From Entomoplasma ellychniae (GTDB lineage: Bacteria; Bacillota_I; Bacilli_A; Mycoplasmatales; Mycoplasmataceae), in contig NZ_PHND01000001.1 of NCBI RefSeq assembly GCF_002930155.1, positions 496,001-560,000 on the forward strand: 64,000 bases of DNA, given 5' to 3'. Below the pieces are notes generated by a model. That model saw only the letters and a list, made by a program, of their open reading frames with translations, was not told the origin of the DNA and did no database searches. Shown here in pieces: positions 1 through 6,371 of this stretch; position 1 is the first letter of the stretch; each line of letters opens with the position of its first letter. The position numbers were made by a program, and so were the translations under genes.

Positions 1-290
1 AACCAATGCTGTGCCGATGGTCCATGTGGTAAAGATGGTTGTGATAATAGTGGAACAGCTGGTTTTCCAACAGCTATTGTAAAACTCATTAATAAAAAAA
101 TAACTAAAAGACTAAAACATGTAATAAATAAATAACTTGAAAAAGCTTTTTTAAAAACAGTTTTTCAGTAACTATAAGGCTTAGTATAAATGTGCTCTGC
201 TTGTTTTACATCATCACCAACCCATTCAAATAAGTTGGAGTCAATATTGTAAATATCTAAATTAAATTTTTTGGATTTTATATATTCCAT
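1..290 (-). CDS. oppC: Oligopeptide ABC transporter permease OppC (N-terminal part)
   Basis: This is the first 96 or so residues of a gene that runs off the left edge. It starts at an ATG preceded by an AAAGAGGTTAATATG ribosome site, 13 bases after the oppB stop. The visible protein has a hydrophilic cytoplasmic N-terminus and then a hydrophobic segment near residues 60-80 (containing FITCFSLLVIFLLMSFTIAV), as expected for the first membrane helix of an OppC/DppC permease. UGA is read as Trp once. The assignment to oppC rests mainly on its position directly after a clear OppB; the conserved EAA loop lies outside the window. With OppB it would form the membrane channel for oligopeptide import. 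Confidence 0.75.
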
Positions 291-303
291 ATTAACCTCT
301 TTC

Positions 304-1509
304 TTAACTTAATTTAACTCTTGGATCTAGAATCGCTAAAAGTAAATCTCCAATAAGGTTAGCAAAAATACCAAGAAAAGATGAAATAACGACAAATCCC
401 ATAACTGTAAATAAATCTTTACTTCCCATCGCGCCTATTACAAAGTAAGTCATTCCCTGAATATTTCAAGTTCTTTCAATCAATAAACTAGTTCCAAAAA
501 TTGTAAAAATAAAAGCTCCAGGCATTCCCCTTACCATTCTAATAAATGAATTTCTAAAAACATGTACAAAAAATACATATTTTTCTCCCATTCCTTTAGC
601 TGTCGCAAATCTAGTATAATCAGCATTCATTTCATCAACAACATATCTTCTTGTCATAAAAGCTACACCAGGAACCATTAATAAAATAATGGCTAAAATT
701 GGGAACATTCGCGTATAAAGACCACCAGTTGTTCAAGAAGTGTGTGAGCCCAAACCCATTGATATTTCATAAAATACTTTAATAGTAACAAGTGTTGGCA
801 AAGCAAACATAATCAAACTATATCAATTAATAACATTGTCAGCTGTTTTGTCTTTTTTTATTGCAGCATATACCCCCAGCGGAATACCAAGGATGTAACC
901 AAATGATGTACCTATGAATCCTACAACAAAAGATATTTTCATCCCACTAGAAAATATTTCCGAGACTGGAGTAAATATTGGTTTGTTGGTAGGTTTTAAA
1001 GCTAAACCTAAATAAAATCACTTAACAACAGGTGTTGTTTCAATGTTTCCTGTTATGTCATTTAATATTGGACTAGTTTGAACAGTTTTAGGGAAAAGTG
1101 GTGTTACATTTTTTAAGTAATTTAATATTTGATATATTAATGGGCCACTTACGCCTAAAGCTTCTTTTCTATTTTCTAAAATTTTATTGTATCGAGTATC
1201 TCCTCGTTCAATCCCCATTTTAGCAAACTTACTAGATAGGTCCGCAATTAAGACCTCATCTTTTACTACAAAAGAAATCATTCAGAACACAACTATAATA
1301 GCCAAATAAATAGTTATAAGAGCAAAAAATATTCTTTTTAAAGAATAAGTCAATAATGAATGCTTTTTGCAAAATTCATCCAAAATTAAAACAGATTCTT
1401 GAAAACCATGATTTATTTGATATAATATTTTATGGCTTGATTTTTTATTTAAAGGGTTGTCGCTAACTTTTTCGATTAAATTTTCAAGCTCTTCTTTTAT
1501 TATTTCCAT
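304..1509 (-). CDS. oppB: Oligopeptide ABC transporter permease OppB
   Basis: A 401-residue inner-membrane permease of the OppB/DppB family. A hydrophilic stretch precedes the first membrane helix (about residues 58-81). A long extracytoplasmic region follows, as in mycoplasma OppB, then the five-helix transport domain. The C-terminus ends in the family motif LLLAILDPRVKLS. Several TGA codons read as Trp. The start chosen is the ATG that follows AGAAAGGATAAAA; an upstream in-frame ATG lacks a ribosome site. OppB pairs with OppC to import peptides, a main amino-acid source for mollicutes. A terminator-like hairpin 43 bases upstream of the start suggests expression is controlled by attenuation. 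Confidence 0.92.
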
Positions 1510-1552
1510 TTTTATCCTTTCTAATAAATGAAAAATAAATTGCAGATTAAAC

Positions 1553-1575
1553 AAAAAAAACTTAGTCTTACTAAG
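1553..1575 (-). terminator. Intrinsic terminator/attenuator just before oppB
   Basis: Read on the minus strand this is CTTAGT-AAG-ACTAAG followed by eight T, a short but canonical intrinsic terminator. It lies between the 47-codon leader ORF and oppB. The 5' half of its stem (CTTAGTAA) can instead pair with TTACTAAG at 1647-1654 further upstream in the transcript, which would disrupt the terminator. The arrangement is that of an attenuator; function is inferred. Confidence 0.7.
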
Positions 1576-1590
1576 TTAAATGATTTTATA

Positions 1591-1637
1591 ATTTTTCTTT
1601 ATATATAAATATTATGGAATTATATATAAAGAAAAAT
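1591..1637. repeat. Perfect 18-bp inverted repeat in the opp leader region
   Basis: Positions 1591-1608 and 1620-1637 are perfect inverted copies (18 bp, 11-base loop). The hairpin sits between the candidate anti-terminator strand (1647-1654) and the terminator (1553-1575), so it would bring those two elements together in the RNA. Confidence 0.85.
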
Positions 1638-1654
1638 AAATATTTTCTTAGTAA

Positions 1655-1670
1655 TGTATTTTAAAATACA
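1655..1670. promoter_or_regulatory. 16-bp perfect palindrome TGTATTTTAAAATACA
   Basis: A perfect 16-bp palindrome lies between the stop of the leader ORF and the anti-terminator strand. It could be a protein-binding operator or simply another RNA hairpin. No regulator is identified. Confidence 0.45.
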
Positions 1671-1684
1671 ACTACACTGATTCA

Positions 1685-1828
1685 TTAGCTAAAAGATGTA
1701 GTTATTGTTTGATTAATAACGGTCTGTTTTAATTGCTTATTTAAAAAAATACTTTTCATAGACAACGGAGTATCTATAAAAAAAGTTAAATCTAACTTAA
1801 TATTCAAATTATTTTTATATTTTTTCAT
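1685..1828 (-). CDS. 47-residue leader peptide upstream of opp
   Basis: An open frame of 47 codons begins at an ATG with a strong ribosome site (CAAAGGAG, five bases before the ATG). A good sigma-A promoter lies immediately upstream. The peptide starts MKKYKNNLNIKLDLTFF and ends TITTSFS. It has no signal peptide or clear membrane segment. It has many Asn, Lys, Leu, Ile and Thr codons but no long run of one amino acid. It is followed by a hairpin array and a terminator before oppB, so it may be a leader whose translation sets opp transcription. It could instead be a stand-alone small protein. I recognise no family. Confidence 0.6.
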   Translation of the reverse strand: MKKYKNNLNIKLDLTFFIDTPLSMKSIFLNKQLKQTVINQTITTSFS

Positions 1829-1852
1829 AAAAACTCCTTTGTCTTATTTCAA

Positions 1853-1880
1853 ATCATAACAAAAAAAAAATAAAAAGCAA
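1853..1880 (-). promoter_or_regulatory. Sigma-A promoter for the opp leader
   Basis: On the minus strand: TTGCTT, a 16-base spacer that is nearly all T, then TATGAT, about 25 bases upstream of the leader ATG. The palindrome AAGCGCTT (1879-1886) overlaps the -35 element and could be an operator. Confidence 0.7.
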
Positions 1881-1948
1881 GCGCTTTTAAAGTTCTTGCA
1901 TTTTTAATTATATTCAATTAACATATTACAGAAATATTAAACTAAAAA

Positions 1949-2473
1949 TTAGCTTATTATTTTTTCAATTATTTGTAATAAATTAATATGTTTATTAAAA
2001 GCCAATAAAAAATTTTTATCTTTGTAGTAAAAATTTAAAAACTCTTTAAGGGTTTTACATTGATTTTTTAAAGACTGCTTTTCAAAGTATTCTAGGTTTT
2101 TAAAAACTAGAATAATTGGCTTGTTAGAAGATACTATTAAATCTTTATTTTCGTTTAAAATAGTTATGTAGAAACTGTAAATTGCTTTATTAACTGTTTC
2201 AGCAAAACTTGACTTTGTATAAAGTTCTAAAAGAACATTTAACAAAAATATTAAAATAAGTTTTCTATTGTTTAATTCTAATTCAAAACTTGAGTCATTA
2301 ACTAAAGTTGTTTTGTTTAAAATAGCAATAGTTTCTTTTAACTGAGCTATATTTGTAATTAAGTTATTTTTTTTAATAAAATCACAAATTTCATAATCAT
2401 AATTAGAAATTAAAAAATAGCTTTTGATTATTAAGTACTGATCATTGACATAATCATAAATTTTTTTAACCAT
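1949..2473 (-). CDS. Uncharacterised protein (174 residues)
   Basis: I do not recognise this protein. It is 174 residues, mostly predicted alpha-helical, rich in Leu, Ile, Lys and Asn, with no Trp and no signal peptide. A hydrophobic stretch (RKLILIFLLNVLLELY) lies mid-protein and could be a buried helix rather than a membrane span. It starts 10 bases after the cls stop, so it is probably the last gene of the long minus-strand operon. A segment weakly resembles part of the 232-residue unknown on the other side of cls. Confidence 0.75.
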   Translation of the reverse strand: MVKKIYDYVNDQYLIIKSYFLISNYDYEICDFIKKNNLITNIAQLKETIAILNKTTLVNDSSFELELNNRKLILIFLLNVLLELYTKSSFAETVNKAIYSFYITILNENKDLIVSSNKPIILVFKNLEYFEKQSLKNQCKTLKEFLNFYYKDKNFLLAFNKHINLLQIIEKIIS

Positions 2474-2482
2474 AAATCCTCC

Positions 2483-4030
2483 TTAAAGAATTGGTGCTAT
2501 CGCATTAAAAATTTTAATAATTAATCTTTTAAGTGGTTTGGCATGTTTTAATGGCACCTTAGAGTATTTGTATGCGATATTAAAATCATGTTCCATTTTA
2601 TTTTTTAATTTTTTATTTAGCTCTTCTGATTTAACTAAAACCATTGTTTGTTGATCTGAAAAAAGTGCTCTATAATCTAAATTTGTAGTTCCAACAAAAC
2701 TAATTGAATCATCAAAAATAAAAGTTTTTTCATGTAGAAAAGTATTATTTAAAGAATAAATTTTACCTTTACTCTCAAACAATTTTTTAGTTCTATTTTT
2801 AGATACATCTAAAATCATAAACTTATCAGTCTTTCCAGGAATCATTAACCTAACATCCAAACCAGAATTAGCAGCTAAACAAAGTGCATCTAATAATTCT
2901 GGGGGTGGAATAAAATATGGTGTTTTTATTCATATAGATTTTTGAGCTGAATTTATCAATGAAAGCAAAACATCTAAATGAGTAGATCGAGGGTGATTTG
3001 GTCCATTAGCAACAACTTGAATAAATTCTTTTGGATTATTTTCAATTTTTTCATGAAAAATTGTTTTTAAAAAAAGATTGTCAATTTTCTTTTTGCTGTA
3101 AAAATTTCAGTCACGAATAAATATATTTTCTATTTCTTTAACTACTTCTCCACTAATTTTGTAAGCTGAATCGTTTCAGTATCCAAATTTAGATCCTATA
3201 TTACAATAACCATCTCCAATGTTAATTCCACCAACAAAACCATAAAAACCATCAATGACAATGTCTTTTCTGTGATTTCTATAATTTGCTTTTCAAACAA
3301 TAAAAGGGAAATGCACAGGTGAATATCCCAACATTTTTGCTCCAGCTAATTTAAGTTTTTTCTTTGTATTTCTAAATTGATTATAACATCCTAAGAAATC
3401 ATAAATAATATAAACTTCAACACCCTCTTTAAGTTTTTTAATCAGTATCTCTGAAACACGATCCAAAAATTCGCTTTCTTCGATTATAAACATATTTATC
3501 AATATATATCTTTTAGCCTTTTTAAGTTCAGATAATAAAGTTTGAACATAATCATTTCCATTTTTTAAAAAATCAACTTTAAAATTTTTGTAAATATTTT
3601 GATTTTGTTGCTTAAGCGATGATATAAATGCTCTTTTAAATTGAGGGCTTTGTTTAGTTAAATCAGATAAATTTTCAAGAGAATTTTGTATATCCATAAA
3701 ATTAGAATGCTTATCATTTTTGTATTTGTAAAGTTTATTTTTTTTATATTTGTAAGGTCTACCAAAAAATAAATATGAAACAATACCAAAAAAGGGCACA
3801 AGACATATATAAATTGTTCACCTTATTCTTGTTTCAATTCTTCTTTTTTTATTACCTAAAATCACAAAACTTCACAATATAGCTAAAATGTGGGTAGAAA
3901 CCAAAACAGAAATAAGTGTAATGGGTGTTTTAAAAAGAAATGTTAAACCTACATTCAAGCCTAAATATAGTAAAAAAGCAGTTAAGAATATGCAAATTAG
4001 TGATGATGTTACTACTATTGGTTTTTTCAT
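2483..4030 (-). CDS. cls: Cardiolipin synthase
   Basis: A 515-residue phospholipase-D-family enzyme that joins two phosphatidylglycerols into cardiolipin at the membrane. Two hydrophobic N-terminal helices (about residues 3-30 and 36-55) are followed by two catalytic HKD motifs. The first is H253-x-K255-x4-D260 (HRKDIVID) and the second is H433-x-K435-x4-D440 (HEKTFIFD). The substrate-side enzyme PgsA is also in this window. Several TGA codons encode Trp. The start is the ATG just after the upstream gene, with AAAGGATAATATT before it. It sits between two unknown genes in a close-packed operon. Confidence 0.93.
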
Positions 4031-4034
4031 AATA

Positions 4035-4733
4035 TTATCCTTTGCTAATAATTTTGTCTAACTTAATTTTTTCTAATCAATGATTTGTTTTCAATATTAA
4101 ATGATTGAATTGCATTGGTGATAATTTCATTGTAGCTTCATTTAACTTAGTATTTGCATTAAGTTTATAAATGTATAAATTTTCAGAGTTTTCTATGTTT
4201 ATTTTTTTATACTGAAAAGAAATAAAAATAAACAATGACACTAAATATCCATAGTTATAAAGTTCTTGATTTTTTTCTAAACTAATGGATGCGAATATGT
4301 TTCCACATAGTTTAAATCAATTATGTTTATTAAGAATATCATTATGTGATTTTTTTAAATCTTCAGTATCATAACTTTTTAAAATTTCTTCTTCTAAATT
4401 TAAATCACTACTTATAGTTAAATTATTTAAAAATTTTTTTAACTTTACTTGAAAATTAAATTGATCTTGATTTTTTTTATATTCAAAATCGTTGTCAATA
4501 AATCAAAATATTATTAATAAAAAGACTGCTTCATTATAAAAACTGCTTAAGTGTTTTTTTTCAATTGTTATGACATTTAAAAAAAGTCTCAAAATAATAT
4601 TTTTTTGAGATAGTTTAAATATTTTTTTAACTTGTGAATTATCAAAGCCTACATCAAAAACAATTTTTTGAAAAATTTTTTTGTGATTTTTAATCAATAT
4701 TTTGTAAGACTTTATTTTTTTGTGATTTTTCAT
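4035..4733 (-). CDS. Uncharacterised protein (232 residues)
   Basis: Not recognised. It begins MKNHKKIKSYKILIKNH, is strongly basic at the N-terminus, and has a hydrophobic helix around residues 64-79 (NEAVFLLIIF plus Trp from UGA). A second hydrophobic patch is near the middle of the C-terminal half. An AAAAGG ribosome site precedes the ATG. Its stop lies five bases before the cls start, so translation may be coupled to cls. It has no catalytic motif that I can name. Confidence 0.75.
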
Positions 4734-4743
4734 AATTACCTTT

Positions 4744-5661
4744 TTATTTTTGTCTAGATAAAATTGGGAATATTATTTTGCTGTCACTAATATTTGTTGT
4801 AATTTCTTTTGTTCAAAGAGTCGATTTAATTTTGTTTTCAGAACTTCTAACAAAAATGTCTGTATTAGCTATGTGTAAACCTTCTTTTAAATCTGGAATA
4901 AAACCAAAGTCTACTCTTTTAATATGTTTTGGTACAATAATTTTTAGTAAGTATTCAATATCTACTTTATCATGCGCAAAAATCGAAATAAGATCAAAAA
5001 CATCTTTATTATATTTATAACAAACAACAACATCTAAACTTGGTATATGATATGTATCATTTGAGAAATATTTTAAAATATTAAAAGTTTTAATAGAACT
5101 ATCAAACTTAGAATCTAAATGTGAAGATTGTTTAGTTGAGTGTTTGATTTTCTCAGTCATAATTTCAAAGTCTTGTAGTAAATCTAAATCAAGTTTTTTA
5201 ATTTTATTTCTAACAGTGTCTTCATTGTGTTTTCAATTTAAAAAATAAAGGTATTCTTTAGTTTTTTTAAACTTAGTTTGTTCATAAATATGCTCATCAA
5301 TATCATTTGAAAATGAAATAATAATGTCTACTACATTTGAGTATTTATCTATTGCTGCATTAATTAATTCAACTTCAAGATTTTCATGTTTATGAGCTTC
5401 TTTCAAAAATAAGTTACCTAATTGAATTGCTGTGCATTTTTCATCACCAATAAAAATTTCAAATTTTGTAATTCCTAAAGCTGCAATAATTTCGTTTTTT
5501 TCATTAATAATTGTAACTGGTAAAAAGTTGTTTAAATTTTTATTTTTGAAAATTCACTTTTCGAAATTTTCATTATTAGATTTTCTTATTAGGCCATTTA
5601 AATCTTGGTTGAAATGTTTATTGTCCTTATAATCAAAAATTATGTCGTATTCTTTTTTCAT
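4744..5661 (-). CDS. GNAT-like acyltransferase domain protein
   Basis: A 305-residue soluble protein with a good AAGGAG ribosome site. The N-terminal half reads like a divergent GNAT fold: an ENEIIAALGITKFEIFIG strand pair followed by KCTAIQLGNLFLKEAHK. That is roughly where the acetyl-CoA loop of Eis-like enzymes falls, and a helix and a conserved-looking F-K-K-T-K-E-Y follow. The canonical R/Q-x-x-G-x-G/A loop is not intact, so the call is tentative. The C-terminal half has alternating strands, as in two-domain GNAT proteins. Substrate unknown. It lies in the tsaC-cls operon. Confidence 0.6.
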
Positions 5662-5720
5662 TGTTCTCCTTGTAAATATAACTTAATTAATTATACCTTT
5701 TAACCTTTAAAAAACCTAAT

Positions 5721-6371
5721 CTAAATTTTACAGATAGCTTGCTCAGACATTATGTTTAAAAGTATTGTTTCTTTTATTTTAATATTAAATAACTCACTAA
5801 TAGTATTATTAATAAGTTCTGATTCATATTTATATTTATCAATATATGGGGATTTAGAAAACTTTAATAATAATATAAAGTATTCTTTTCCATTTGTACA
5901 AATTATTTCTATGTTACTTATATAAGGTGTTATTTTATTATTGTTAATTAAAACAACATCAGTTCAAAATTTATTTATTTTATTTTTATAAATAAAATTA
6001 TTTAAGTTTTTAATAAGTGTTTTAGCATATGTTGCAATCTTTTTATTATCATAACTTTCATCTGGAAATCTTATTTCACTAGAACTTCTTTGTTTAATAG
6101 AAATTTTTACAATTTGTTTAATCAGTTCATTTCTTTGTGATATATCGAATAAAATTTGATCATTTAATTGATTTACAAAAGGGTACTTTTGAATAATAAA
6201 ATTAGCGTCATTCTTTATGTTTAAAATGTTCTTGTTTAAGTATTTTGTGTACTGAGGAAAACAAAGGTGAAACTGTTGCAATTTTTTTGGATCAACTTTT
6301 GCTAAGTTATCTTCAAACACTAATCATTCTGCTAAATTTAAACTATCTATCATTTTATTTATCTTACTCAT
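5721..6371 (-). CDS. Uncharacterised protein overlapping tsaC
   Basis: An unrecognised protein of 216 residues if it starts at 6371 (MSKINK...), overlapping the tsaC end by 13 bases. A start at the internal ATG at 6353 gives 210 residues with no overlap. Neither ATG has a strong ribosome site. The sequence is hydrophilic, with the segment RSSSEIRFPDES and a C-terminal region of alternating strands (KEYFILLLKFSKSPYID). No signal peptide or membrane span. Position next to tsaC suggests co-expression only. Confidence 0.7.

Follow-up and report, generated by a model that had tools for sequence, protein, structure and literature searches.

A conserved leader ORF upstream of the oligopeptide importer genes of Entomoplasma ellychniae as a candidate transcription attenuator

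The closest described systems are the trp, his and ilv leaders and the his leader peptides of Firmicutes (PMC2965389), which have in common with the locus described here a short ORF that is translated, an antiterminator hairpin in competition with a terminator hairpin, and a ribosome position that is predicted to choose between them. In contrast to those leaders, the present one stands before a peptide importer in Mollicutes and contains no clear run of one regulatory codon; its predicted sign also differs, since a ribosome reaching the stop would mask the antiterminator, and the ribosome site of the leader lies buried in a pairing with codons of its own ORF. Leaders of the ermC/tna type respond when translation slows in general or stalls. 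The likeness to these is that no amino-acid specificity is needed and that conserved residues lie within the leader peptide, whereas stalling is hypothetical here and part, at least, of the core's conservation is at the RNA level. ermC is also named among the leader systems in PMC2965389. No such system in Mollicutes was found in the open literature, which is weak evidence, with most subscription papers outside its scope. The region before oppB is very probably a conserved regulatory leader and a real switch for peptide uptake, and we consider it reasonably likely that it works as a leader-ORF-coupled transcription attenuator of the opp operon.

Layout and folding of the leader

The window is the whole stretch of 64,000 nucleotides of E. 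ellychniae that was analysed, and it was translated with code 4. A first-pass annotation of this DNA had listed an ORF of 47 codons with a promoter and a strong ribosome site, an 18-bp hairpin, a palindrome and a terminator before oppB; all of these are present on the minus strand, in the following arrangement (window coordinates).

1861–1890, minus strand: intrinsic terminator of the upstream gene, AAAAGC GCTT GCTTTT plus a T tract (sequence)
1853–1861, minus strand: extended −10 promoter TGTTATGAT, with a start predicted at about 1847–1844 (sequence)
1840–1834, minus strand: leader ribosome site AAAGGAG (sequence)
1833–1843, minus strand: 5′ arm of helix P1, GACAAAGGAGT, which includes the leader ribosome site (folding, inverted-repeat search)
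1761–1771, minus strand: 3′ arm of helix P1, ACTCCGTTGTC, equal to leader ORF codons 19–23; a homologous helix occurs in relatives
1685–1828, minus strand: leader ORF MKKYKNNLNIKLDLTFFIDTPLSMKSIFLNKQLKQTVINQTITTSFS, 47 codons, stop TAA at 1687–1685
1620–1685, minus strand: candidate for a second small ORF, whose start lies in the stop/start overlap TAATG (sequence)
1655–1670, minus strand: palindrome TGTATTTTAAAATACA (sequence, fold)
1647–1654, minus strand: candidate antiterminator 5′ strand TTACTAAG (sequence; taken alone not beyond chance)
1591–1637, minus strand: perfect 18-bp hairpin, arms 1637–1620 and 1608–1591, bridging both antiterminator strands (inverted repeat, folds)
1568–1575, minus strand: candidate antiterminator 3′ strand CTTAGTAA, which shares bases with the 5′ arm of the terminator
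1553–1577, minus strand: leader terminator, 8-bp stem AACTTAGT/ACTAAGTT (1577–1570/1566–1559) and T8 (1560–1553)
304–1509, minus strand: oppB, permease, ATG at 1509 (Pfam BPD_transp_1, 6.5e-26)

The promoter TGTTATGAT thus comes directly after the upstream gene's own terminator (1890–1861), and the distance from the leader terminator to oppB is 43 nt. The genes oppC, oppA, oppD and oppF come after oppB, below window coordinate 1 (Pfam BPD_transp_1, SBP_bac_5, ABC_tran and oligo_HPY).

The leader RNA folds at −75.2 kcal/mol, compared with −49.2 ± 4.5 kcal/mol for dinucleotide shuffles (z −5.9), and the segment 1690–1545 folded alone still gives z −3.6. Two features absent from the first-pass annotation involve the leader ribosome site. 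An inverted repeat with 39-nt arms (1844–1806/1798–1760, minus strand) buries it, and the strongest pairing in the window leader is P1, GACAAAGGAGT (1843–1833) with ACTCCGTTGTC (1771–1761). In a set of 77 real genes carrying a ribosome site, taken from these genomes, 76 fall short of its duplex energy of −17.5 kcal/mol, and the energy of the P1 region is reached by 0.5% of shuffles. In an RNA thermometer of the fourU type, a ribosome site paired with a U run melts with temperature; in the sister genus (g11) P1 pairs AGGAGA with UUUUCU, while the window pairing, GGAGU:ACUCC, is more stable.

The pairing of TTACTAAG with CTTAGTAA, proposed in the first-pass annotation as the antiterminator, is a different matter. 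The complementary octamers do exist, but their 8-bp duplex (RNAduplex −8.6 against −7.2 ± 2.1 in shuffles, p 0.195) is not beyond chance for DNA of such AT-richness; the second opp copy of this genome and the relative G034 gave no significant antiterminator either when duplexes were compared with shuffles. In the modelled folds, a hairpin around the palindrome TGTATTTTAAAATACA competes with the antiterminator strand. Of the switch elements in the window, P1, the pairing of the ribosome site with the ORF's own codons, has the better support.

Relatives of the leader ORF and the gene order around it

Relatives of the leader ORF occur in 18 other genomes, every one of them upstream of an oppB. 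A profile finds the ORF in G034 (g4), in G016 (g9), in the window genome and in 16 g11 genomes, two of which (G033 and G081) joined the set through the profile search itself. Across 198 genomes of the order, every match at E 5e-24 to 4e-7 is placed before an oppB, in g1, g4, g9 and g11, and no match outside this family is better than 2.4e-4. The oppB upstream regions of the family share a good ribosome site and an ORF core of roughly FFxxxxLSxKNxFF(N/K). When the profile was built without the window ORF, this ORF was still the best of 4,614 frames of the window (E 0.029; next 0.44), and a profile from g11 only gave it E 0.38; the window leader peptide as sole query returned only noise, and the leader peptide had no match in Pfam or NCBIfam. 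As judged from these comparisons, the homology of the window ORF is not carried by peptide similarity to g11 alone; it rests on the position at oppB, the promoter and 5′ end, the intermediates (G034, G016 and the second own copy) and P1.

The aligned relatives keep a promoter, TTTGnTAnTAT, at a similar distance, followed by AGGCGATGGAGG or AAGAYAAGGAG, and this promoter fits the pattern described for M. florum, TGN plus TAWAAT without a clear −35 (PMC7745072). An intrinsic terminator follows the leader ORF in the window (1577–1553), in the second own copy, in G034 and in 16/16 g11 leaders; no clear one was seen after the ORF of G016. In the second own copy the leader ORF is frameshifted, yet its oppB is intact, which weighs against the attenuator reading.

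Several individual leaders are worth describing. The frameshift in the second copy (L045:4745–4930) comes from T6 where G016 has T7, and the downstream frame is still G016-like (FGDMQ). In G031 (L043:5750–5870) the leader copy is decayed, with its core deleted, and the adjoining oppB has an internal TAA, so that leader and importer seem to decay together. Within the leader ORF of G034 (L042:5803–5846) lies a hairpin of 19 pairs that is nearly perfect (−23.3 kcal/mol). This leader is missing from two g11 genomes (L031:1319–1384, L032:1290–1418); immediately before oppB they carry a different small ORF that has a good ribosome site and begins MPFIYN... or MPFCIF..., perhaps another leader type.

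Among close g11 relatives, synonymous differences are about 12 times fewer in the ORF core (pS 0.029) than in its flanks (0.34), and pN/pS outside the core is 0.35–0.54. For the whole ORF, considered in g11 only, pN/pS is 0.43, compared with 0.82 ± 0.32 for permuted columns (p 0.025), and the gaps there are multiples of three. The low pS in the core together with the pN/pS of the ORF points, on modest evidence from sequence comparison, to an ORF that is probably translated and whose core probably carries an extra constraint at the RNA level.

The distance between leader and importer is not the same everywhere. It is short from terminator to oppB in the window, G034, G031 and the second own copy, and about 190 nt in G076, a genome without the convergent gene that most g11 genomes have between leader terminator and oppB; in those the leader stop lies 570–820 nt before oppB. 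Leader control of oppB is not certain in the g11 genomes with the convergent gene, where a separate promoter may serve oppB. Since hardly more than a −10 element is required of a promoter in Mollicutes, one may also lie downstream of the terminator. The g11 convergent gene encodes a membrane protein homologous, at 41% identity, to the product of a gene that the window genome carries between oppA and oppD. This small gene, with the motif SKKLRWYDYL, sits nested in antisense orientation within the opp locus (L046:6757–7197, below window coordinate 1); it is the same gene in a different position, oppA–oppD here and leader–oppB in g11 (L018/L028), and no Pfam family matched it above cut-off.

This gene order, in which most g11 units end in a strong terminator well before oppB, and the peptide constraint outside the core would both fit a free-standing small gene, whose RNA of about 300 nt makes a small peptide or a trans-acting small RNA acting on the importer, with the terminator as an ordinary unit end and oppB under its own promoter. 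We regard this as unlikely, because it leaves unexplained both the co-varying antiterminator at the stop codon, described below, and the short distance from terminator to oppB in the four loci just named.

If the unit is an attenuator, the FF...FF of the core suggests a special case, classical amino-acid-specific attenuation with Phe codons as the sensor. Most relatives do have 5–9 Phe in 45–71 codons, about a twofold enrichment and often as FF pairs; the window ORF, however, has 4 Phe in 47 codons, a number matched by 31% of same-length stretches of window proteins, and the conservation of FF may stem from the RNA pairing of the core. We rate Phe sensing as distinctly unlikely.

Compensatory changes in P1 and the antiterminator

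Alignment of the relatives, in which a lack of covariation had been named in advance as grounds against the switch, revealed covariation in the sister genus, and the antiterminator tested in this way is that of g11. There, the stop codon and the next bases, TAATTGTTTATAAA, pair with the terminator 5′ arm, TTTATAAACAGTTA. Across the 16 leaders 88.3% of the cells are paired, compared with 33–54% for slid versions; 6/14 pairs show change on both sides, and double-change cells number 13 against 5.5 ± 1.7 when shuffled (0/500), counted, here as for P1, as sequences and not as events. A partner swap was run as a check: in 8 divergent genomes the true partners pair at −20.8 kcal/mol and swapped ones at −11.6 kcal/mol (permutation p 0.0001). 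In P1 of g11, GGCGATGAAGGAGA with TTTTCTACATTGTC, 93.7% of the cells are paired in the 16 leaders (slid 43–70%); its double-change cells number 6, where shuffles give 1.6 ± 1.0, and its partner-swap p is 0.0018 in 11 genomes including the window. RNAalifold on the alignment recovered P1 and the terminator base only. In g11 a hairpin inside the ORF core, CATTGTCATTTAAAAA/TTTTTAAAGACAATG, uses bases that P1 needs as well and so competes with it; this hairpin reaches significance in most relatives, but not in the window.

The central claim of the first-pass annotation, a leader ORF joined to a terminator/antiterminator unit for opp, has thereby gained strong comparative support, from the ORF at oppB in several genera and from the g11 covariation. 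Mutual exclusion of the two folds is likewise borne out by covariation in the 16 relatives; for the window's own leader it is a candidate feature, the pairing there standing at p 0.195. Such a value would also fit an ordinary 5′ leader whose terminator is leaky and whose AT-rich surroundings fold by chance; since P1 and the leader are kept with compensating changes, and the antiterminator co-varies in relatives, we find such an account very unlikely. A T-box or a ligand-binding riboswitch, such as those known for amino-acid transport genes, would also be a bistable RNA with a terminator/antiterminator before a transporter gene, but is highly improbable here, where no such Rfam family was matched at E ⩽ 5 in window positions 1–6000 or at E ⩽ 1 in 8 relatives, and where the switch overlaps an ORF, probably translated, that contains the conserved core.

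Ribosome position and the proposed switch

Folding of g11 leader RNAs ending at the terminator apex indicated that the antiterminator is less occupied once a ribosome masks the stop codon, in 14/14 leaders tested and by half or more in 11/14 (from 0.69–0.86 to 0.06–0.36). With full-length g11 RNA at equilibrium, ribosome masks produced no switching, the terminator being favoured in nearly all leaders. Since the equilibrium favours the terminator whatever the ribosome position, any switch must be kinetic. In the window, equilibrium folds do shift with ribosome position, but not in a simple way. The TTACTAAG strand there lies 30 nt downstream of the stop, out of reach of a ribosome that simply terminates, and the stop mask is without effect. 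Direct action of such a ribosome on this strand is not supported, and neither is selection of the fold by a ligand or peptide.

The attenuator model that we favour builds on the conserved ORF and its opp location, the compensatory changes of both pairings in relatives, P1 of the window and the RNA-level constraint on the core, all of which the analysis showed. Transcription would start just ahead of the leader ORF's ribosome site. In the nascent RNA this site would fold onto codons 19–23 of the same ORF (P1), so that translation of the leader is itself restricted. The terminator 5′ arm may then pair either with its own 3′ arm, giving termination, or with the upstream antiterminator strand, giving read-through into oppB; the latter strand lies at the ORF stop codon in relatives and after it in the window. 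In the relatives, a ribosome at the stop codon would cover the antiterminator strand and favour termination, while an untranslated leader, or a ribosome held inside the ORF, would leave the strand free and allow opp expression. The predicted sign is therefore that a completed leader turns opp off and a blocked or stalled one turns it on. Ribosome position would set the fold, a shortage of amino acids or peptides may be the signal, and the same logic may hold in the window, where the TAATG stop/start overlap may carry ribosomes over the antiterminator strand.

A more elaborate version, which we put forward only tentatively, is a two-level leader switch new to Mollicutes. Here the core codons would have alternative partners, the leader ribosome site and, in relatives, the strand of a neighbouring hairpin, and the leader would in this way gate its own translation; this would feed a co-varying terminator/antiterminator for peptide uptake, and in the sister genus read-through would cross the nested convergent gene, making opp a non-contiguous operon.

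Mollicutes have few regulators, depend on imported peptides for amino acids, and are thought to have little gene regulation. The attenuator offers a testable model that relates leader translation to opp read-through. If it is true, the leader-ORF switch would show how near-minimal cells can match peptide uptake to need without a dedicated protein.
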